Source of the DNA: a virus
IMG/VR virus record: IMGVR_UViG_3300018423_000042
Span: 1 to 30,700 of that record
Direction: 5' to 3' (one strand)
Length of the DNA stretch: 30,700 nt
Part shown: one piece after another, positions 4,589-16,711 of the stretch
Position numbering within the stretch: the stretch's first letter is position 1
How the letters are laid out: the number at the start of each line of letters is the position of its first letter
The notes under the pieces: model-generated
Seen by the model: only the letters and a program-made list of their open reading frames with translations
What the model was told of the DNA's origin: nothing
The model's database searches: none
Translations under genes and position numbers: made by a program

Positions 4589-4848
4589 TTGGCATGGTAG
4601 TCCCGTGCCAACTTCATGTGATCGTGGATCCCGTGATCCTGAAAAAAGGTCTTGATCCCACGATTGTGCTGATCAATATGGCACATGCGACAAAGGGGGA
4701 CCAAATGCTCACTGGTACCCCCGGCACCCCGAGATCTCATGTGGGCAGGATCGCTGGGCCCATGCTTGCCACAGGCAGCGCAGGGAAGGGTGCGAATCCA
4801 CGCAGCCTTGGCACCAAACTGCTCCTCGTATTTCTTGCCCAAAAGCAA
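4567..4848 (-). CDS. HNH endonuclease (DUF968-like)
   Basis: This is a small HNH-fold nuclease of about 93 residues. Zinc-binding cysteine pairs are CAAC (about residues 23-26) and CRMC (about 53-56). Between them lies the catalytic His region PAHMRSRGAGG, and HxxxH-like residues follow in CHIDQHNRG. This layout matches the HNH/DUF968 type found in phages, often beside terminase genes, where HK97-type HNH proteins assist packaging cleavage. The only start codons before the domain are TTG 4848 and TTG 4842; no ATG or GTG exists between the in-frame stop at 4882-4884 and the domain, so a TTG start is likely. It is the first gene leftward from the AT-rich control region, with the 16-bp palindrome only 15 bases upstream. 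Confidence 0.85.
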   Translation of the reverse strand: MLLGKKYEEQFGAKAAWIRTLPCAACGKHGPSDPAHMRSRGAGGTSEHLVPLCRMCHIDQHNRGIKTFFQDHGIHDHMKLARDYHAKWGDTWP

Positions 4849-4862
4849 ATCCCGGCCCGGAG

Positions 4863-4878
4863 TATATACTAGTATATA
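4863..4878. repeat. 16-bp perfect palindrome TATATACTAGTATATA
   Basis: This is a perfect 16-bp dyad centred at 4870/4871. Its 12-bp core TATACTAGTATA recurs at 4957-4968. It lies 15 bases upstream of the TTG start of the HNH gene. It could be a dimeric repressor site or a very AT-rich promoter core. Confidence 0.7.
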
Positions 4879-4956
4879 ATATTATATAATAAAATAAAAA
4901 AAAATAAGTGTAATTAAGTCCTTTATATAATAGTATAAGTGTATAACACTCTTTAT

Positions 4957-4968
4957 TATACTAGTATA
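4957..4968. repeat. Second copy of the TATACTAGTATA palindrome
   Basis: This is a perfect 12-bp dyad, identical to the core of the palindrome at 4863-4878. The centres are 92 bp apart. Paired sites of this kind can serve cooperative repressor binding or looping; that function is inferred. Confidence 0.65.
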
Positions 4969-5260
4969 TTATCGATTGCCCTGAGACTTTCATTTTTGGT
5001 GCAAAAATTTTCACTGAAAATACGCGTAGTGTCTGCCAATACTAATGGGGGTGAAAGGGTTTTGTAGAATGTGCAGAATTGTGTTTATAGAAAAAACAGC
5101 AGCCATCCGGCAGAGGGCCTCCCCCTCCCCACTGGGGGTGCCGGTCCCGGCATTGTGGACCCAGCACTGAACTAGACTTGCACAATCAGACGTGCATATC
5201 AAAAGCGTGAGTGTCCGATTTGATGAAGGTGAATCACTCACTTGTCCAACGGAGACAACG

Positions 5261-5449
5261 ATGGCAAAGAAGCACACGATGGCACTGGGACGGATGACGG
5301 GAAACGCAACCGTCACTGCTCGTCCGAACAAGGACGGCACGGTTCGTCTGACCTACAGCCGCACGGTGCCCGCCGAGGAGGCCAGAGCGTTCTGGGTCAA
5401 GCAGCGGGATCTGGAGCTGACCACCCCCCTCGCTGAAGAGGGGGCGTGA
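5261..5449 (+). CDS. Small unknown protein (62 residues), first gene of a rightward group
   Basis: ATG 5261 has GGAG six bases upstream, so I prefer it to the earlier in-frame ATG at 5192. The protein is MAKKHTMALGRMTGNATVTA followed by a charged helix and a C-terminus ending EEGA. The pattern of alternating Thr and hydrophobic residues (ATVTARPNKDGTVRLTYSRTV) suggests a small beta hairpin followed by a helix. No family is recognised. The next gene starts 1 base after its stop, so the two are likely co-translated. Confidence 0.6.
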   Translation: MAKKHTMALGRMTGNATVTARPNKDGTVRLTYSRTVPAEEARAFWVKQRDLELTTPLAEEGA

Positions 5450-5450
5450 C

Positions 5451-5666
5451 ATGGAATCTCCAGACACGAGGAGTGCGGTGACGGAGTATTTGGCGGTGCG
5501 TGACGCCCTGCGTGCCCGCAAAAAGTACGAGATAGCCTGCGAGAGGCTGTACGACTTCCTGCTCGTAGATTTCCCGGAGCTGGAAGAGATGCTGAAGATC
5601 GGCAAGCGCGGCTCAAAAGTACGCCAAGAAGAGCGTAGAGAGCGTGAAGAAGGAGGTGCGGCATAA
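5451..5666 (+). CDS. Small charged helical protein (71 residues), unknown
   Basis: ATG 5451 follows the previous stop by a single base. The protein is helical, with an aromatic patch (YDFLLVDFPELEEML, about residues 34-48) and a C-terminus dominated by Arg, Lys and Glu (about 50-68). No motif is recognised. Position and spacing support a real gene in a short rightward transcript. Confidence 0.6.
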   Translation: MESPDTRSAVTEYLAVRDALRARKKYEIACERLYDFLLVDFPELEEMLKIGKRGSKVRQEERREREEGGAA

Positions 5667-9425: not shown

Positions 9426-9715
9426 GCGATGTAAACTGGAAGAGCCGGGCGAAGATCAGCTATATCAGGGACTACCCGAACGAGGTAGACATGATAGAGG
9501 TTCGCATTGAAACCGAGCTTGATCGACTAGAAAGAGATATAGAAATGCTGCAAGCATCCCACGGAAAATATCGTGAGATGATCCAGCAAGACGTGGCTCG
9601 CACAAGGATGGTGATTATGCAACATGTGGAGAGCGTCAAACGTCTTTGCTTGGAAGGGGAACAGCCCCAACTGGACCCACACCAGACAGACATGTGGCCC
9701 AGCACGATTCTCTAA
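9422..9715 (+). CDS. Small coiled-coil protein (97 residues)
   Basis: The ATG overlaps the previous stop (ATGA), and GGAGG lies a few bases upstream. The centre (about residues 20-75) is a continuous amphipathic helix rich in Glu, Arg, Met and Ile (EVRIETELDRLERDIEMLQ and onwards), probably a coiled coil. No enzyme motif is seen. It precedes the transglycosylase lipoprotein by 13 bases. Confidence 0.66.
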   Translation: MSDVNWKSRAKISYIRDYPNEVDMIEVRIETELDRLERDIEMLQASHGKYREMIQQDVARTRMVIMQHVESVKRLCLEGEQPQLDPHQTDMWPSTIL

Positions 9716-9728
9716 GAGATGCAAGCAG

Positions 9729-10301
9729 ATGAACGCTCCAGCTTTAATAAAAAATATTTCTGTCATTTTTTTTATTTCCGCCTGCCAGCAGCCCGAGGTC
9801 GAGCCACACATACCCGAACCCATCGTTGCAGCCCCAAGTGTCTTAGAACGCAACGTGGGGCCTCTGGTGGGCCATCTGGAAGAGGTTCGGTGGCCATGCC
9901 ACGGATCTGGCTGTCTGGATTCAAGCGACATCGCCCGACTCGCAGAGCACATCTACGAACGATCCGATGTGCTTGGGCTAGAGGTGGCCATGATGGTTGG
10001 GATACTCATGGTGGAGAACCCTTGGCTCGACTCGCTCGCAGTCTCTAGCGCGGGTGCTGTCGGCCTTTATCAGGTCATGCCAATGCACCGGGGCGCATGG
10101 CTAGAGTGTGATGACGCAATAGAGACCGTGTCAGGTTCGGTCTGTCACGGTTCAGTGATCATTCACGACTTTCTACAAAGGAGAGATAGCAGACACATGG
10201 CCTTGCTCGCATACAACGGATGCAGTGGTGGGCCGTGCGAAGTGTACCCAGAAAAAGTTTCTGGATATTCAAATCAATTTCTCAATGAGGAGGAACCATG
10301 A
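9729..10301 (+). CDS. Lytic transglycosylase (SLT-like) with a lipoprotein signal
   Basis: The likely start is ATG 9729. It gives a short signal peptide, MNAPALIKNISVIFFISAC, ending in a lipobox (ISA before Cys19), so the mature protein would be lipid-anchored. A Pro-rich linker (about 20-45) leads to a goose-lysozyme/SLT-like domain: the candidate catalytic Glu96 lies in GILMVENPW, then AVSSAGAVGLYQVMP (about 104-118), and ALLAYNGCSG towards the end, all typical SLT landmarks. Such enzymes cleave peptidoglycan between MurNAc and GlcNAc. Paired Cys residues around 57-62 and in the C-terminal third suggest disulphides. It lies in a run of small, probably early genes rather than with the lysis-like group at 21-23.6 kb, which is odd. 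Confidence 0.8.
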   Translation: MNAPALIKNISVIFFISACQQPEVEPHIPEPIVAAPSVLERNVGPLVGHLEEVRWPCHGSGCLDSSDIARLAEHIYERSDVLGLEVAMMVGILMVENPWLDSLAVSSAGAVGLYQVMPMHRGAWLECDDAIETVSGSVCHGSVIIHDFLQRRDSRHMALLAYNGCSGGPCEVYPEKVSGYSNQFLNEEEP

Positions 10302-10519: not shown

Positions 10520-10559
10520 CAAATTGTATCGATGGCAAATGGTACAATTTGACATTGTA
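10520..10559. promoter_or_regulatory. Operator-like cluster of ATTGTA/TACAAT half-sites over the -35 box
   Basis: CAAATTGTA (10520-10528) is the exact reverse complement of TACAATTTG (10543-10551). In addition TACAAT (10543-10548) and ATTGTA (10554-10559) form an inverted repeat around TTGAC. Three half-sites thus overlap and flank the -35 hexamer, as expected for a repressor site. The protein that binds is unknown. Confidence 0.62.
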
Positions 10560-10577
10560 ATAGATATGTATTATTAT
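10549..10577 (+). promoter_or_regulatory. Strong sigma70-like promoter for the AAA+/VWA genes
   Basis: Perfect -35 TTGACA (10549-10554), a 17-base spacer, and -10 TATTAT (10572-10577, five of six to consensus). Transcription would start near 10584. This is the best promoter seen in the window. Confidence 0.8.
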
Positions 10578-10611: not shown

Positions 10612-10628
10612 GGCAAAGATTTTTTGCC
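10612..10628. repeat. 17-bp palindrome copy GGCAAAGATTTTTTGCC before the ATPase gene
   Basis: One A-to-G change from the perfect copy. It lies in the leader between the hairpin and the AAAGGAGG ribosome site of ATG 10662. Confidence 0.83.
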
Positions 10629-10661: not shown

Positions 10662-11804
10662 ATGGACTACGAAGTAACCGCGAGCATGATGGCACCCTTG
10701 GTCTACGACGGGTGCGACCCGCTAAACCCGACCGTATTCACGGGCCCTCCGGGGGTGGGGAAGAGCGAGATCGCCTACGCACAGTGCGAAGAGTACGCAC
10801 GACAGCAGGGGCTCGTCCCGGTGGACACGCGGGAGCGGTACCCCGGCCCCGGTGAGTTCGGCATCACCCCAGTCAACTTCAGTGGCATGGCACCGGAAGA
10901 TCTCCAGTGGCCCGTGTTTCAGGACGGCGTGTACTCGCACCGGATCTCGAACCAGTTACCCTTCGCCAGTGAGGATTGGGCAAAAAACGGTGCGACACCG
11001 GAAACTTATCGTGGTGTCGTCATCGTGGACGAGCTTGGCAAGAACCCCGACCTGATGAAGTTCCCCGCGCAGTGGGTGAACGAGAGGCAGTGGGGCAACG
11101 GCCAGTTAGTTCCTGCTGGGTTGGGATTTATTTTCACAACCAACGACTCGACGCACGGTGCCGGTGCGTTCGACATGACATCCGATCTGGTGAATCGGCT
11201 CAGGGTGTTTCGGGTGGGTAGATCCGTATCGGACTTCCTGAACTACCACAGTACGGGGGGCGGCGAGCGTCTGCATCCCCTTGTGGTCAGTTGCTGCAAG
11301 TTCTTGGGAGAAGACTTCCTGTTCACTCAGGAAAAAACTGCTCCGGGGCAGCCCTTCTCATCGCCTCGCTCTCAGGTCAAGGCGAGCAGGATTCTGGACG
11401 ATGATAACTTCGATCCGCATGGGATACACAAGTACAAGCTCCACGCCACAGTGGGTACGAAAGCGGCGACCGAACTACTCGCTGCGTACTCAGCCCATCA
11501 GAACGCCGGAGACATCTGGTCTTGGATCGACAGCCCCGACACATACAAGGATGAGATCAAGACCTTGAGTGCAGACACCACCAACAATGGCAAGCTACAA
11601 ATGGCTTCGATTGTTTCGATGGTGTCAAAGCGGGTGCAGAAGAACCCATCGGATTTCGGCAATGCAATGCAATTCTTCAACATCATGGGCAATGAGGAGA
11701 CCACGGTGACATTCGTGTCCATCTGCGTTGATCTCGTACCGGAGGTCAGGACACAGGCAGCGTTCGTTCGCCACTACGCAGACAATCAAAACTTTTATTT
11801 CTAG
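10662..11804 (+). CDS. MoxR/CobS-like AAA+ ATPase
   Basis: This 380-residue protein has Walker A GPPGVGKS (residues 28-35), Walker B VVIVDELGK (119-127), a sensor-1 region FIFTTND (157-162) and a conserved Arg in DLVNRLR (about 175-181). This matches the MoxR branch of AAA+ proteins, which includes cobaltochelatase CobS. Members remodel protein complexes, usually with a VWA partner that delivers substrates or metal ions. The VWA protein is encoded two genes downstream. ATG 10662 has AAAGGAGG six bases upstream. The gene follows a strong promoter, a hairpin and a palindrome copy. Its TAG stop touches the next palindrome copy. The ATPase call is sure; the target is unknown. Confidence 0.9.
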   Translation: MDYEVTASMMAPLVYDGCDPLNPTVFTGPPGVGKSEIAYAQCEEYARQQGLVPVDTRERYPGPGEFGITPVNFSGMAPEDLQWPVFQDGVYSHRISNQLPFASEDWAKNGATPETYRGVVIVDELGKNPDLMKFPAQWVNERQWGNGQLVPAGLGFIFTTNDSTHGAGAFDMTSDLVNRLRVFRVGRSVSDFLNYHSTGGGERLHPLVVSCCKFLGEDFLFTQEKTAPGQPFSSPRSQVKASRILDDDNFDPHGIHKYKLHATVGTKAATELLAAYSAHQNAGDIWSWIDSPDTYKDEIKTLSADTTNNGKLQMASIVSMVSKRVQKNPSDFGNAMQFFNIMGNEETTVTFVSICVDLVPEVRTQAAFVRHYADNQNFYF

Positions 11805-11819
11805 CAAAAACTTTTTGCC
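11803..11819. repeat. 17-bp palindrome copy AGCAAAAACTTTTTGCC between ATPase and partner gene
   Basis: A 15-bp perfect dyad, GCAAAAA-C-TTTTTGC. It begins inside the TAG stop codon of the ATPase gene and is followed at once by AAAGGAG for ATG 11834. Confidence 0.84.
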
Positions 11820-11833
11820 AAAGGAGCAAAGCC

Positions 11834-12790
11834 ATGTCACGGCTGCACGAAAACGCATTGATCGCATCATTCCATGTCGGTCAGTTCGGCATCTTCAAGA
11901 CCAACACTGAGATTGCAAGGCAGGGTTCGTCTGCTCTTGGTGTGGACTCGCAGTACACACGGGCTCAGATCCGGCTGTACGACGAGTCGATTAACCGAGC
12001 GATCAGGAAGGTGGAAGCTGCTGCCCGATCCTATCTCCACAAGAAAACGTCACCATGGAGCGACCCACCTCATGCCGAGCGACTGTTGCTTGTCGATGAT
12101 GTGTATGAGGTCGAGCAGAAGATGGCAGATTTCCGCATGGAGCGAGAGGACGTTGCAGATAAACTCTTGTTCAAGCGGTGGGATATCCTGCGAGAAGAGG
12201 CACGCATTGCACTAAACGATCAGTTCAGGGAAGAGTTCTTTCCAGATGTATCGGTGGTGCGTCAAAGATTTAAGTGGGAGTTGAAGATCACGCCGATCTA
12301 TGACATCCGTAACATCAGAAACAACGTGCATATCAAGGCGCACGAAGAGCTTCAGGAGAGAGCTATTCAGAACAAGGAAGCTCTTCACAGAGCAAAGACA
12401 GCCAACCTTGTAGCCGATCTCATGGACGGCGTTACGTCCCTGACTAACGGCGTCATCAGCGGCATCGACTCGTACCAGTACAACGAAAAGGACGGCAAGA
12501 AGGACAACTCGCTCCCCAAAAGGCCGAGCTGGGACAATCTCATTGCGGGTGCCGAGCGCATTGAGAAGTGGGCACCTTCATTCGACAACGAGAACATGAC
12601 CAAGACTGCAACACAGGTCAGAGATCTTGTCGATCACATTCGTGCAATCGCTGACGGGGATTTGTCCAAGGCTCGCAAGGTTCTTTCGGGCGAGGACGAC
12701 TCCATGCGTCAGGATGTAAGAAAAAGACTGAGTGAGATTAATCGTACAGCATCGCAGGTGACGGGTGCCTTTGACGAGTTCATGTCCTAA
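11834..12790 (+). CDS. Helical partner protein of the AAA+/VWA module (DUF3150-like position)
   Basis: This 318-residue protein has no enzymatic motif. It is almost entirely helical and rich in Arg, Glu, Lys and Asp. Long charged helices span about 45-160 and 175-215, a polar linker lies near 215-235, and two more helices end the protein. In other phages the gene between a MoxR/CobS ATPase and a VWA-metallopeptidase gene is often a DUF3150-type protein; length and position fit, but I could not confirm family membership from sequence alone. AAAGGAG stands 7 bases before ATG 11834. The stop overlaps the next start in TAATG, so translation is probably coupled to the VWA gene. Confidence 0.75.
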   Translation: MSRLHENALIASFHVGQFGIFKTNTEIARQGSSALGVDSQYTRAQIRLYDESINRAIRKVEAAARSYLHKKTSPWSDPPHAERLLLVDDVYEVEQKMADFRMEREDVADKLLFKRWDILREEARIALNDQFREEFFPDVSVVRQRFKWELKITPIYDIRNIRNNVHIKAHEELQERAIQNKEALHRAKTANLVADLMDGVTSLTNGVISGIDSYQYNEKDGKKDNSLPKRPSWDNLIAGAERIEKWAPSFDNENMTKTATQVRDLVDHIRAIADGDLSKARKVLSGEDDSMRQDVRKRLSEINRTASQVTGAFDEFMS

Positions 12791-14124
12791 TGGAGACAGC
12801 TATGGATACCGAAGCGAAAGAAGAAATCCAGAGAGTGAAGAAGCAGCGGTCCAAGCTGTTCATGTTTGCTCCGGGTACGTACATGATGGGTGGCGATATG
12901 CCAATCGAGGCAAGCACAGACATCGACACTTACGCTACTGACGGAGAAAAGATATTTGTCAATGTAGCTTTTTCTAAAACCATGACGGACAAAGAGGTGC
13001 GTGGTGTATTGATCCATGAGATCAAGCACAAGGCTCATGCCCACCATCTTCGCAGGCCTGATTGGTGCCCGCACTTGCTCTGGAATATTGCGTGTGACTA
13101 CAGCATTAACGGCGACATCAAGCAGTCACAGAATTATGGCAAAGATTTTTTGCTGCCCGACGACGGGTTGGTTCATAAGCAACACTCATTTAGTGGGTGG
13201 TCTTGTGAGCGTATCGCCAGACATCTGAAGGACAACGACCCTGCGTTTGCTGACGAGGATGATCAGGGCAAGCCCCAGAGCGGTGACGGTGACCCCGGTG
13301 GCGACGACGGCGAAGAGAAAGACAGCAGCCAGAATCCCAACAGCAAGTCATCGTCAGGTGGCGGGGAGCAGAGCAGTCAAGACCAGAACAAAATGCCGAA
13401 GCCGTTCGGTGAGGTTCTGGATGCCCCGGTCAAAAGCGACGGTGACGCTGAGAAAATACGGGAAGCGTACCAGAAGATCCAAGAGGATCTTGCCGAGGCA
13501 GAGATCGTTGAGAAAGCGATGGGGCGTGGGGCAGGAACAAGCTTGACCGGCATGGCACTCAAGGATCTTACCAAGCCCTGTCCAACCAGAGTTATCCGCC
13601 CATTCCTACAAAAATCTTTTGAGCGCAAGCGCAGTTGGCGGCGTCCGAACAAAAGGTTCTCACGCAACGGGAATTATTTTCCCGGCAAGTCACGGGTTAA
13701 TGGCGAACTGGTCTGCTGCATTGATTCGTCCGGGTCCGTTGGGTGGAGTGAGTTTCAGAAGTTTCAGTCAGTCATCGTCAACTCTGCACTCGACTTGGGC
13801 GTAACCAAGGTGAAGGTTGCCTTCGTGGACAGCGACATCCACATGAACCCAGACACAGGAAAGCCTTGGTTTGAGTTTCAGCTTTCCCGCTCGTCTAGCA
13901 AGTCATTCAAGATGGATATCTATGGCGGCGGCGGTACGACCTTCGATCCTATCTTTGACTACATCGAAGAAAACAATGAGCAAGTCAGAGCTTTGATCTA
14001 CATGACTGACGGTTTTGGTAACTGCAACATCTCGCCGCCCCCGTACCCTGTTCTGTGGCTGACGACTCATCAGGCTCCGTGGTTCAAGAATGGTGAGTTC
14101 GGTCAGGTCGAGGTGCTATCGTGA
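12790..14124 (+). CDS. Metallopeptidase-like plus VWA-domain protein (DUF2201 type)
   Basis: The 444-residue protein has two domains. The N-terminal part holds a zincin signature, HEIKH at residues 76-80, followed by a His-rich helix and NIACDYSING (about 99-108), as in the DUF2201 putative metallopeptidase family. A long acidic, Ser/Gly-rich linker (about 150-200) follows. The C-terminal VWA domain (about 305-440) keeps a MIDAS motif: DSSGS (312-316), GGGTTF (380-385) and YMTDG (404-408). VWA proteins of this kind pair with MoxR/CobS ATPases, as CobT does with CobS. The start at ATG 12790 is in a TAATG overlap; ATG 12802, with GGAG six bases upstream, is an attractive alternative four codons later. 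The gene also contains a copy of the 17-bp palindrome at 13138. Confidence 0.88.
   Translation: METAMDTEAKEEIQRVKKQRSKLFMFAPGTYMMGGDMPIEASTDIDTYATDGEKIFVNVAFSKTMTDKEVRGVLIHEIKHKAHAHHLRRPDWCPHLLWNIACDYSINGDIKQSQNYGKDFLLPDDGLVHKQHSFSGWSCERIARHLKDNDPAFADEDDQGKPQSGDGDPGGDDGEEKDSSQNPNSKSSSGGGEQSSQDQNKMPKPFGEVLDAPVKSDGDAEKIREAYQKIQEDLAEAEIVEKAMGRGAGTSLTGMALKDLTKPCPTRVIRPFLQKSFERKRSWRRPNKRFSRNGNYFPGKSRVNGELVCCIDSSGSVGWSEFQKFQSVIVNSALDLGVTKVKVAFVDSDIHMNPDTGKPWFEFQLSRSSSKSFKMDIYGGGGTTFDPIFDYIEENNEQVRALIYMTDGFGNCNISPPPYPVLWLTTHQAPWFKNGEFGQVEVLS
13138..13154. repeat. 17-bp palindrome copy inside the VWA gene (GGCAAAGATTTTTTGCT)
   Basis: It matches 16 of 17 bases of the copy at 10612. Here it encodes GKDFLL (about residues 117-122) between the metallopeptidase motif and the linker. 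It may be a true internal site or chance. Confidence 0.6.
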
Positions 14125-14315
14125 TGCTATCCGATGAAGAGACCAAGCTTGTAGTCACGCTCCTGCGCCGGTTCGTGAAAGAAAAGCACAACAAACTGCG
14201 AAGGCTCAGGCCGCTAGATGGTCAGCCCCCCGACGTAGTGAAGCATATAAAAAAGAAGCACACCATCAGTATTAATTTCGCTCACAAAATCATCAAAAAA
14301 CTGGAGGGAGTATGA
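14121..14315 (+). CDS. Small basic helical protein (64 residues)
   Basis: GTG 14121 has GAGG seven bases upstream; ATG 14124 directly follows and may be used instead. The frame overlaps the VWA stop. The product is strongly basic (RRFVKEKHNKLRRLR, HIKKKH), all helical, and probably binds nucleic acid or a protein. No family is recognised. Its TGA overlaps the next ATG. Confidence 0.65.
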   Translation: MMLSDEETKLVVTLLRRFVKEKHNKLRRLRPLDGQPPDVVKHIKKKHTISINFAHKIIKKLEGV

Positions 14316-14638
14316 AGCTGCCGATGTTGTTCCGAGCACTGTCTTCACTGGAAGACTTGCAACATCACGGAGATCTCATCCTTGAGAACGGCATGGCTTC
14401 CGTGAACTGGAAGCAGTTCGAGGAAGACCTACACGAAGCATCTACCGTCATCAACGAAATAGATGAGCACGTAATGTTTTTCGTCGATGAGATGAATAAT
14501 CTCAGGCACGCGCTCTCCATGCTGGTAGCACATCAGGATGTCTGGCCCCTGATTTACAGGGACACTAGAGATGCCCTATCATCAGCGCACCGAACTCTTC
14601 ACAATAGTCCATTGCTCAATGCACAGGAGGAACAATGA
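14312..14638 (+). CDS. Small helical protein (108 residues), unknown
   Basis: It starts in an ATGA overlap, with GGAGGGAG just upstream. The product is a mixed-charge helical protein with several Met and His residues and a likely coiled region (about 35-75, EEDLHEASTVINEIDEHVMF). No family is recognised. Tight coupling to the AAA+/VWA genes suggests it is on the same transcript. Confidence 0.66.
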   Translation: MKLPMLFRALSSLEDLQHHGDLILENGMASVNWKQFEEDLHEASTVINEIDEHVMFFVDEMNNLRHALSMLVAHQDVWPLIYRDTRDALSSAHRTLHNSPLLNAQEEQ

Positions 14639-14838
14639 GAACGAGAGAAGCAGCCGAAAAGAAAGCAGACGCCATTCAACGAGCGGAAGAGATGGGCCAC
14701 ACGACCATGCTCCTGAATAAATCAGGCGCAATTGAATTATGGGTCTGCAAGGTGTGCGGCGGGGCGATGGATATCTGGGACAACCCCGCTCAGGTTAACG
14801 GCGCACTACCCCATGAGGTGTGCCCCGGAGAGCAGTAA
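14635..14838 (+). CDS. Small protein with a zinc-ribbon-like Cys pair (67 residues)
   Basis: It starts in an ATGA overlap with AGGAGG upstream. The N-terminal half is a charged helix (REAAEKKADAIQRAEEMG). The second half has CKVC (about 38-41) and a later Cys before the end (VCPGEQ), too few for a full zinc ribbon unless a His helps. It is the last gene before the bidirectional terminator. Confidence 0.66.
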   Translation: MRTREAAEKKADAIQRAEEMGHTTMLLNKSGAIELWVCKVCGGAMDIWDNPAQVNGALPHEVCPGEQ

Positions 14839-14841
14839 CAA

Positions 14842-14877
14842 AAACCCCTCCCCCGGTCACGGTCGGGGGAGGGGTTT
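14842..14877. terminator. Bidirectional rho-independent terminator
   Basis: AAACCCCTCCCCC (14842-14854) is the exact reverse complement of GGGGGAGGGGTTT (14865-14877), a 13-base stem with a 10-base loop. Rightward, the T tract is short (TTTCC). Leftward it reads GGGGTTTTTGTT, a better tail, so it also suits the primase-helicase transcript arriving from the right. It lies between two convergent gene blocks. Confidence 0.93.
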
Positions 14878-14950: not shown

Positions 14951-16711
14951 TCAATCAAAGTCCCAATCAAAGTCATCATCTTCAATCGACCAATCGTTCC
15001 ACCGGCCAGTTGGCTTGTCGAAGTTCAGCTTGCATGAGCCGTTCCGGCCAAGCCAAGACCACCGGACCTTCCAGATGTGCGCTTCGGGCGGCTCCTCGTC
15101 TTGTGGGTGCCGCCAAGCGGTAAGGCCGATGTCAGCCTTGGCGAACCATGCCGCTGACCCTGCGATGTCGTGGCCCGTGACGACCGTCTTCCTGTCAGAT
15201 CTCCTGTCGGGCGAGACCTTTGTTGGGTGTGCAACAAAGAACACATGAGCATCGTGTTCCTTCGCCCATAGCTGAACCTTTGTCAGAATCTGAGAGATAG
15301 CATCAGTCTCTCTCATGTTCTGAGATATGGTCAAGTAATTGTATGGATCAATCACAAGAACACGGCAACCCATACGCATCACTGCCGTGCTCGCGATGTT
15401 CAGGATTGATTCGATGTCAGACGGACCGTCTCTCCTGTAGTCCATGAACAAGAAATGATCATCAATGAATTGAGCAGCGTAGTCACGTTCTGCCGGTGTC
15501 ATCTTTTCCTGATGGCCATCAAAGAACGGCTTGCCCACGATCTTCTGGGCAAGTTGTGCCATGTGTAGCTCTGGTGGTTTCTCGAAAGAACAATACACGG
15601 TTTTCCAATCGTACCGCAGCGCGAAGTTCAGGCACATCTGATCGACCAGATCAGACTTGCCGCAGCTTGGGAAGCCCGTAACGACCGTAAGCATCCCGGT
15701 TGGTATCTGGATCAGCTTGTCGAGACTCTCAATGCCAGTGCTCGCGCCCTTGGCTTGACCGTTCTCGTATAGGTCCACGAACTGTCCGTGGAAGGCATCT
15801 GCATTGTGCAGTCCTACCTCTGGCAGTGGTTGTGCCTTGAAGTAGGCAGACAGCAAATATTTTTTGCCTTCTTTTTTTATTGCTTCTCCCGCATCCTTGT
15901 GACCATTGAGATTAATAGACCATGCCTTTGATCTACCAATCCTACGCACTAACTCTTCTGCCAGTGCGCTCCCCGGCTCGTCATTGTCTGTATTCAGTAT
16001 GACGCGGTCTGCCGAATCCAGTACGGACTTTGCTGCCCACACATACTGGAACTTGTTGTCGTCTGCCGGATCAATCTTGCCGTCCTTCACCTTGGGTGGG
16101 GCACCGTTGGGGATAGACACCACAGTCACATCGTCTGGCAGATCTGCTGACATCCACGCCAGTGCATCAACCTCGCCTTCACAAATCAAGATTGAATTAC
16201 CGGGGACGTAGCTCTCAATGTTGAAAAACTCTGCGCACTTACCCTGCTGACTAAACTTCTTCCCTTCAATTGATCTCCACTTAACTGATACGACCTCACC
16301 ATCTTTCTTGTACGGAAACCCAACCGCATCAACCCTCTCTCCTGCAAAACTGTATGTGCCGAGGATTGTGCGATCTTTTACAACTTGCTCATCAAGACCA
16401 CGGTCGATCATGTACTGCAATGCCGCATTATTCTCCTGTTGTGTGTTAACAATTACAGGTTCAACAGGTATTGTTGGCATTGGTGGTAGCGGTTTGGTGC
16501 CGGATGTCCTGTGCATTATGCCACCACTGGCACCGCAGTGATGGCAGTTGTACCTGAAGCCAAGATTGTCTACGGACACGGACAGCGGCTTGTCGTTCTT
16601 GTTGCTTCTCCTGTCTGCCTGACACTCAGGGCACCTGATCTTGTGCTGCCCCGGTCTCAGGGTTGAGCAAGCATCACTTATCGCCTGACTCACCACCTTG
16701 GTCTCCTGCAT
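14951..16711 (-). CDS. T7 gp4-like bifunctional DNA primase-helicase
   Basis: This enzyme lays RNA primers and unwinds DNA at the phage fork. At 586 residues it is close to T7 gp4 (566). The zinc finger has CPEC (27-30) and CHHC (55-58). The TOPRIM primase core shows CEGEVDAL (177-184) and TDND (241-244). The RecA-like helicase has Walker A GFPSCGKS (346-353), Walker B VLVIDPYNYL (451-460) and FFVAHP (about 492-497). The end is acidic and aromatic (DDDFDWDFD), like the gp4 tail that contacts its polymerase; no DNA polymerase is in this window. ATG 16711 has AAAGGAGG upstream and overlaps the RusA gene by 38 bases. A 17-bp palindrome copy lies within the coding sequence. Confidence 0.95.
   Translation of the reverse strand: MQETKVVSQAISDACSTLRPGQHKIRCPECQADRRSNKNDKPLSVSVDNLGFRYNCHHCGASGGIMHRTSGTKPLPPMPTIPVEPVIVNTQQENNAALQYMIDRGLDEQVVKDRTILGTYSFAGERVDAVGFPYKKDGEVVSVKWRSIEGKKFSQQGKCAEFFNIESYVPGNSILICEGEVDALAWMSADLPDDVTVVSIPNGAPPKVKDGKIDPADDNKFQYVWAAKSVLDSADRVILNTDNDEPGSALAEELVRRIGRSKAWSINLNGHKDAGEAIKKEGKKYLLSAYFKAQPLPEVGLHNADAFHGQFVDLYENGQAKGASTGIESLDKLIQIPTGMLTVVTGFPSCGKSDLVDQMCLNFALRYDWKTVYCSFEKPPELHMAQLAQKIVGKPFFDGHQEKMTPAERDYAAQFIDDHFLFMDYRRDGPSDIESILNIASTAVMRMGCRVLVIDPYNYLTISQNMRETDAISQILTKVQLWAKEHDAHVFFVAHPTKVSPDRRSDRKTVVTGHDIAGSAAWFAKADIGLTAWRHPQDEEPPEAHIWKVRWSWLGRNGSCKLNFDKPTGRWNDWSIEDDDFDWDFD
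15852..15868. repeat. 17-bp palindrome copy inside the primase-helicase gene (AGCAAATATTTTTTGCC)
   Basis: On the coding strand it encodes GKKYLL between the TOPRIM and helicase domains. It is the rightmost full-length copy seen, and it is followed by a T-rich run on the plus strand. Confidence 0.58.

Follow-up and report, generated by a model that had tools for sequence, protein, structure and literature searches.

Core genes of N4-like phages include a pair, gp24 and gp25, to which no function has been assigned (PMC4193335, PMC7650795). A pair of the same kind was found in a survey of jumbo phages, where virion assembly and peptidolytic processing were proposed as its task (PMC7824862), and a two-subunit "MoxR-type" pair was described in a Bacillus phage in 2007 (PMC2147016). 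The combination of an ATPase with a metallopeptidase-VWA protein is therefore not new, since both N4-like and jumbo phages have been reported to carry it; the open-licence PMC literature yielded no paper on what gp24/gp25 do. A locus of this type is described here in a 30.7-kb virus record (IMG/VR IMGVR_UViG_3300018423_000042, positions 1 to 30,700, indicated below as "the window"). As already noticed in a preliminary description made from the sequence alone, it contains three consecutive open reading frames (ORFs; Table 1), encoding an AAA+ ATPase (gene 1), a helical protein (gene 2) and a protein joining a zincin metallopeptidase domain to a VWA domain (gene 3); records of relatives of genes 1 and 3 carry the names N4 gp24 and gp25. 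What is new is a conserved third partner, gene 2, a distant relative of DUF3150. The trio is tentatively read, with a probability of about 45%, as a remodelling machine like NorQ/NorD that uses a helical adaptor and is active in the early or middle phase of infection; its client would most likely be a replication or recombination complex. This reading rests on intact motifs, on the conservation of the trio, on the agreement of its trees, on its neighbours and on its occurrence on plasmids.

Conservation of the trio was evaluated in loci fetched with gene 3, and therefore not selected for gene 2. Removal of four duplicates from the viral loci (L010-L089) left 76, of which 68 feature both the ATPase and the VWA gene, while in 8 the ATPase is missing from the stretch. 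Gene 2 was detected in 49 of the 68, between the two other genes in 44 and upstream of them in 5; these counts are to be taken as detection, not as an independent test, because the final gene 2 profile was trained on many of the same loci. An independent point is that the matches of the first-pass helical profile fell beside the ATPase-VWA pair. In bacterial genomes, 80 loci were fetched with gene 3: the trio is present in order in 40, and elsewhere or in overlapping ORF calls in 10, while the remaining ones feature the pair only (22), lack the ATPase in the stretch (5) or contain the VWA gene only (3). The trio is also present on plasmids of Cupriavidus, Variovorax and Rhodovastum, one trio plasmid being typed as conjugative, and in cyanophage MinM2; all four of these named loci come from a helical query. 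Collection scans using single proteins as queries returned few loci; relatives of the VWA protein occur in 719 of 50,697 phage records.

Trees were compared for 22 loci holding all three genes and a primase. Agreement within the trio reaches a rho of 0.91, versus 0.65 for each member with the primase, permutations giving at most 0.53; partial rho is 0.84–0.85 within the trio, when corrected for the primase, and 0.18–0.19 with the primase, when corrected for a trio member. Since the trees agree better within the trio than with the primase, the trio is inherited as a unit. The preliminary description had taken the three genes as one unit, and the case is better than supposed there, the helical gene being a conserved part of it.

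Gene 2 by itself yields nothing of weight in family searches, Pfam and PADLOC included, while profiles built from three copies detected it in many viral loci. PF11348 (DUF3150) is matched by 23 of 44 aligned family members at E<=0.1 (best 8.3e-9), by 19 of 44 records at E<=0.01 and by 9 over the cut-off; the closest relatives of the window protein (L005, L002, L010-L012, L091, L094-L096) do not match it. Because the window protein itself fails PF11348, gene 2 is described as a distant DUF3150 relative, and not as a filed member of the family. Its AlphaFold2 model (mean predicted local distance difference test score, pLDDT, 91.9) features a mixed N-terminal part followed by a long helical bundle. 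Foldseek found no whole-fold match for this model at E<=0.001; VIA matches, with Z up to 11.1 (2.9 A over 120 residues), fall mostly on residues 174–318 and are common helical bundles, uninformative on function. Domains of NorD, CbbO or ViaA are absent among the VIA matches listed, no sequence relative is present among solved structures, and the search of the open-licence PMC literature found no paper on DUF3150. A helical-family protein is also encoded at 4707–5666 of Tunturiibacter phage Tunturi_3 (L101, found later by helical query), where it is annotated as "HNH endonuclease" and no VWA gene is present in the 10.5 kb of the locus.

Gene 1 matches phrog_1297, labelled "ATPase", over residues 3–375 (E 7.4e-29). 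The Walker A motif GPPGVGKS, containing K34, is present as first described, and K34 and N161 are both retained in 82 of 82 aligned ATPases. Its relatives among solved structures, ranked by sequence, are led by midasin (9.6e-12) and by 2r44 (5.9e-4), which we take to be MoxR-like; 40 ATPase relatives, analyzed at E<=0.01, match AAA_5 (26), AAA_3 (5) or bpMoxR (6). The MoxR/midasin-like label of gene 1 rests on these relatives, because the window ATPase scores below every Pfam cut-off, including those of AAA_5 and AAA_3.

For gene 3, both halves are recognized by Pfam over the cut-off: PF13203 (putative metallopeptidase, E 3.5e-23) and PF09967 (VWA-like, 2.2e-10). The HExxH motif and the intact metal ion-dependent adhesion site (MIDAS) claimed for it are in place, as HEIKH at residues 76–80 and as D312-S314-S316-T383-D407; a conserved aspartate, D103, would provide the third zincin ligand, although conservation of D103 and N107 is partly by construction, since collection scans were seeded with the motif around them. 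Residues D312/S314/S316 (D-x-S-x-S) are kept in 95 of 95 proteins from phages and a few plasmids, in 20 of 20 named or window proteins and, with one gap, in 79 of 80 bacterial copies; the peptidase glutamate is kept in 92, 16 and 70 of them, respectively, the three sets being partly overlapping. The four losses among the 20 are found in Littlefix, OLIVR1 (ligands lost too), a Variovorax plasmid and Atu_ph07; each of the 80 bacterial copies retains all three histidines, including those without the glutamate. The Atu_ph07 protein, ASV44728.2, has HQILH in place of HExxH, and is therefore not expected to be active as a peptidase of the HExxH type. A peptidase degenerate throughout the family was considered and rejected, given the retention of the glutamate in 92 of 95 and 70 of 80 proteins. 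The MIDAS being invariant and the glutamate sometimes lost, the ring-arm core would be fixed and cleavage optional: in these alignments it is not the peptidase that stays invariant across the family.

In the VIA comparison the model of gene 3 matches an integrin I domain (Z 10.3, 3.1 A over 132 residues), and this match covers residues 303–444 only; the zincin half was therefore judged by sequence (PF13203, and M48 peptidase 3c37, E 9e-4, which accompanies VWA proteins among the solved sequence relatives). Foldseek gave no match for gene 3 at E<=0.001, its weak rows being MDN1-MIDAS, NorQD and selecase. Gene 3 also matches phrog_1314 (7e-56), whose label "HNH endonuclease" has no Pfam support, the protein being PF13203 plus PF09967. 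The zincin-VWA protein is called "HNH endonuclease" in many phage records, such as NC_023719.1, NC_048697.1 and OZ196439.1, a name seemingly inherited from the label of PHROG 1314; "anti-sigma factor" is the annotation given to members of the pair in rV5-like phages.

Table 1. Coordinates of the trio, of the ORFs that follow it and of the associated signals in the window
Feature	Position	Strand	Remarks
Sigma-70-like promoter TTGACA-17-TATTAT	10549–10577	+	11/12 consensus positions
8-bp inverted repeat AAATTGTA ... TACAATTT	10521–10550		reaches into -35 box; possible operator
17-bp palindrome	10612–10628		upstream of ATPase start
AAA+ ATPase (gene 1)	10662–11804	+	380 aa; N4 gp24-like, phrog_1297
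Palindrome copy	11803–11819		gene 1-gene 2 gap, directly 5' of gene 2 Shine-Dalgarno
Helical protein (gene 2)	11834–12790	+	318 aa; distant relative of DUF3150 (PF11348)
Zincin (HEIKH), low-confidence linker, VWA with MIDAS (gene 3)	12790–14124	+	444 aa; N4 gp25-like, phrog_1314
Small ORF	14121–14315	+	64 aa; no family
Small ORF	14312–14638	+	108 aa; 40 residues match PF19247 (DUF5895), E 1.6e-5
Small ORF	14635–14838	+	67 aa
Perfect 14-bp inverted repeat	14842–14877		between six-ORF unit and convergent primase-helicase gene
Palindrome copies in window	6684, 7339, 7513, 7997, 8317, 9129, 10612, 11803, 13138, 15852

The mechanism proposed takes NorQ/NorD as a guide. In NorD, a linker connects an N-terminal domain to the VWA domain; a finger of the latter reaches into the NorQ ring, and the ring twists and stretches the linker (PMC13036017). 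Gene 3 shows the same layout, plus a zincin head. By this model, gene 1 would form a MoxR/midasin-type AAA+ ring, on which the VWA domain of gene 3 would dock, gripping the client through the MIDAS metal; the zincin domain, on its floppy linker, would bind the client and, in most lineages, could clip it, cleavage being predicted as optional. Gene 2 would be the third subunit, most likely an adaptor recruiting the client. We infer ring formation, docking and the adaptor role, as well as the timing in this phage, early or midway in infection, and the nature of the client: the latter would most likely be a complex of proteins engaged in DNA replication or recombination, since the trio has genes of that kind next to it in diverse phages and occurs on plasmids and chromosomes. 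A bolder version, in which the trio is a general three-subunit machine of mobile elements, common to phages, plasmids and chromosomal islands, that pulls apart a replication or recombination protein bound to DNA and in most lineages cleaves it, the ring-arm core having been kept through several losses of proteolysis, is speculative and rather doubtful.

Neighbours were surveyed in 59 viral loci, where 150 of 166 selected proteins were scanned: 24 match primase/helicase, 8 DNA polymerase and 4 terminase families, and no capsid or tail family is present among the 25 commonest neighbour families listed. Of ten bacterial neighbours checked, six have a clear family (HipA, RES, Strawberry-notch helicase, DUF4942, ParB, Rad52-type), in our judgement mobile-element-like. 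In N4, gp24/25 belong to the middle transcripts, and none of the 13 proteins listed for the RPP1/RLP1 virions is a gp24/25 homologue (PMC4193335); the PEV2 gene located between the pair is noted as early-transcribed. Neighbours, middle timing and virion list favour DNA metabolism over assembly.

A number of points weigh against a NorQ/NorD-like machine with a helical adaptor and a replication or recombination client. Gene 1 reaches no Pfam cut-off and gene 2, by itself, does not match PF11348; no copy of gene 2 was detected in 19 of the 68 viral loci holding ATPase and VWA genes. In nine loci (L052, L057, L062, L071, L073, L078, L080, L083, L086) a different conserved protein, of about 220 aa, is encoded between the two; its interpretation as a short DUF3150 protein is not supported (HHalign probability 22%), and the same is true of Littlefix gp74. 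The neighbour survey lacks a control with random positions, and phages commonly carry replication genes anyway; some of the plasmid and chromosomal copies of the trio could lie in phage remnants. Finally, four virion proteins of roseophages are encoded near gp24/25 homologues, which fits a role in assembly (PMC4193335).

Among the alternatives, the one surviving best is host takeover or counter-defence, in which the machine would extract or cleave a host or defence protein. The presence of an operon under its own, host-type promoter, the use of AAA+/VWA ternary systems in biological conflicts (PMC7159879) and the HipA and RES genes adjoining two chromosomal copies are in its favour, while the fact that the pair is core to N4-like phages infecting many hosts (PMC4193335) suggests a more general task; the absence of PADLOC matches is a weak argument, that library being made of defence, not counter-defence, proteins. 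On balance, takeover is unlikely. Somewhat harder to sustain is the proposal made for jumbo phages by analogy with Acidianus two-tailed virus (PMC7824862), that of a virion assembly chaperone also processing structural proteins. The roseophage virion genes support it, and against it stand the N4 middle transcripts, the RPP1/RLP1 virion list (PMC4193335) and the example named in the survey itself, ASV44728.2, with HQILH where HExxH would be expected. The version found in the window is unlikely to serve virion assembly alone: genes for replication predominate around it, and the trio is also carried by chromosomes and by plasmids, including one typed as conjugative.

The trio might also be a device by which the element defends itself, excluding other phages or plasmids. 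Its distribution over phages, plasmids and chromosomes is consistent with this, as is the existence of MoxR-vWA ternary conflict systems with an extra subunit (PMC7159879); its core status in N4-like phages (PMC4193335) is not. The frequent vicinity of the trio to replication genes and the absence of any PADLOC match also speak against such a device, which is regarded as very improbable. A CobS/CobT-type metal chelatase, a link raised in the preliminary description, shares the AAA+ plus VWA layout, and ChlI is weakly matched by 4 of the 40 ATPase relatives, but this interpretation is rejected as hardly credible, since no CobS/CobT model in NCBIfam matches genes 1–3 at E<=1, no CobN-like gene is present in the window and 26 of the 40 relatives match AAA_5 instead.

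The trio comes first in a unit of six ORFs, running from the promoter to the hairpin at 14842–14877. The strong promoter already reported is the only match in the window to at least 11 of 12 consensus positions, where shuffled sequences contain 0.2 on average. The operator-like repeat is present as described, overlapping the -35 box; since 33 of 500 shuffled versions of the region contain at least one 8-bp repeat of this kind, chance may account for it and the evidence for an operator is weak. For gene 3, ATG 12802 is a more likely start than ATG 12790, being located 6 nt after a GGAG, while the latter overlaps the stop codon of gene 2. The terminal hairpin (-31 kcal/mol; none of 200 shuffles as stable) is a probable bidirectional terminator, facing the convergent primase-helicase gene (14951–16711, minus strand). 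Elsewhere, the window encodes a Sak annealing protein and a PD-DExK exonuclease (17.7–20.0 kb), a terminase and a 2378-aa protein with an LPD38 domain. The gene immediately 5' of the module encodes a lytic transglycosylase (SLT, E 2.4e-6; 9624–10301, plus strand), unlike the terminase and LPD38 genes, which are on the minus strand. Rfam has no matches across the window.

The palindromes that had been attributed to the module turned out not to be its own: GGCAAA-N5-TTTGCC, with at most one mismatch, occurs in 10 copies spread over 6.7–15.9 kb of the window, versus a mean of 0.1 and a maximum of 1 in 30 shuffles. These palindromes, 15–17 bp long, are mostly located just upstream of gene starts, many just before a Shine-Dalgarno. 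Multi-copy palindromes were also found in L005, L091, L094, L095, L096, L011, L012 and L098: related phages maintain the layout with their own arm sequence, both arms being altered together (GGGAAA/TTTCCC in L005; GGGGAA/TTCCCC in L091, L094, L011 and L012; GGTGAA/TTCACC in L096; GGTTCA/TGAACC in MinM2). Of six palindromes tested, five fold into a small hairpin, while the copy at 11803 does not; they may act as hairpins of the mRNA or be bound by a dimeric phage regulator. They resemble the SAS/ESAS set of Cluster K mycobacteriophages (PMC3203893). A distinct, AT-rich palindromic repeat, TATACTAGTATATAAT, is present in 3 copies in about 110 bp (4865–4978), a possible origin or regulatory site.

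For a pair which is core to N4-like phages and often mislabelled as HNH endonuclease, the third partner, the occurrence on plasmids and the invariant MIDAS narrow the question of its function, and the invariant MIDAS together with the dispensable glutamate points to simple mutants. If the client were a replication complex, the trio would represent a class of AAA+ remodellers widely used by mobile elements. Compared with known systems, the group 2.2 jumbo-phage pair shares with the window an AAA+ gene followed by a zincin-VWA gene, and differs in having two genes only, a named example (ASV44728.2) without the catalytic glutamate and a proposed role in assembly (PMC7824862). The vWA-MoxR-VMAP ternary conflict systems (PMC7159879) likewise combine MoxR, VWA and a third protein, but the third protein and the effector domains differ; no relation between VMAP and gene 2 was seen, and none was looked for. 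N4 gp24/gp25 belong to the same two families, with the same strand and order and a zincin-VWA protein with MIDAS; in the N4-like phages examined the intervening gene, if any, is unrecognized as a gene 2 relative, HHalign having been applied to Littlefix gp74 only. Chaperone-like AAA+/VWA pairs of the type invoked in the preliminary description do exist: NorQ/NorD, as well as RavA/ViaA and CbbQ/CbbO, resemble the window in the AAA+ ring and in the VWA arm with MIDAS, N-terminal domain and linker. These are enzyme-maturation systems and, to our knowledge, feature neither a zincin domain nor a DUF3150 partner. In Cupriavidus pRK1-1, in the other plasmids and in MinM2, by contrast, the same three genes are found in the same order: these trios are diverged and known from automatic annotation only (AAA family ATPase or MoxR / DUF3150 / VWA-like), with small extra genes between the members in MinM2, and all of them are matched by the profiles built here.

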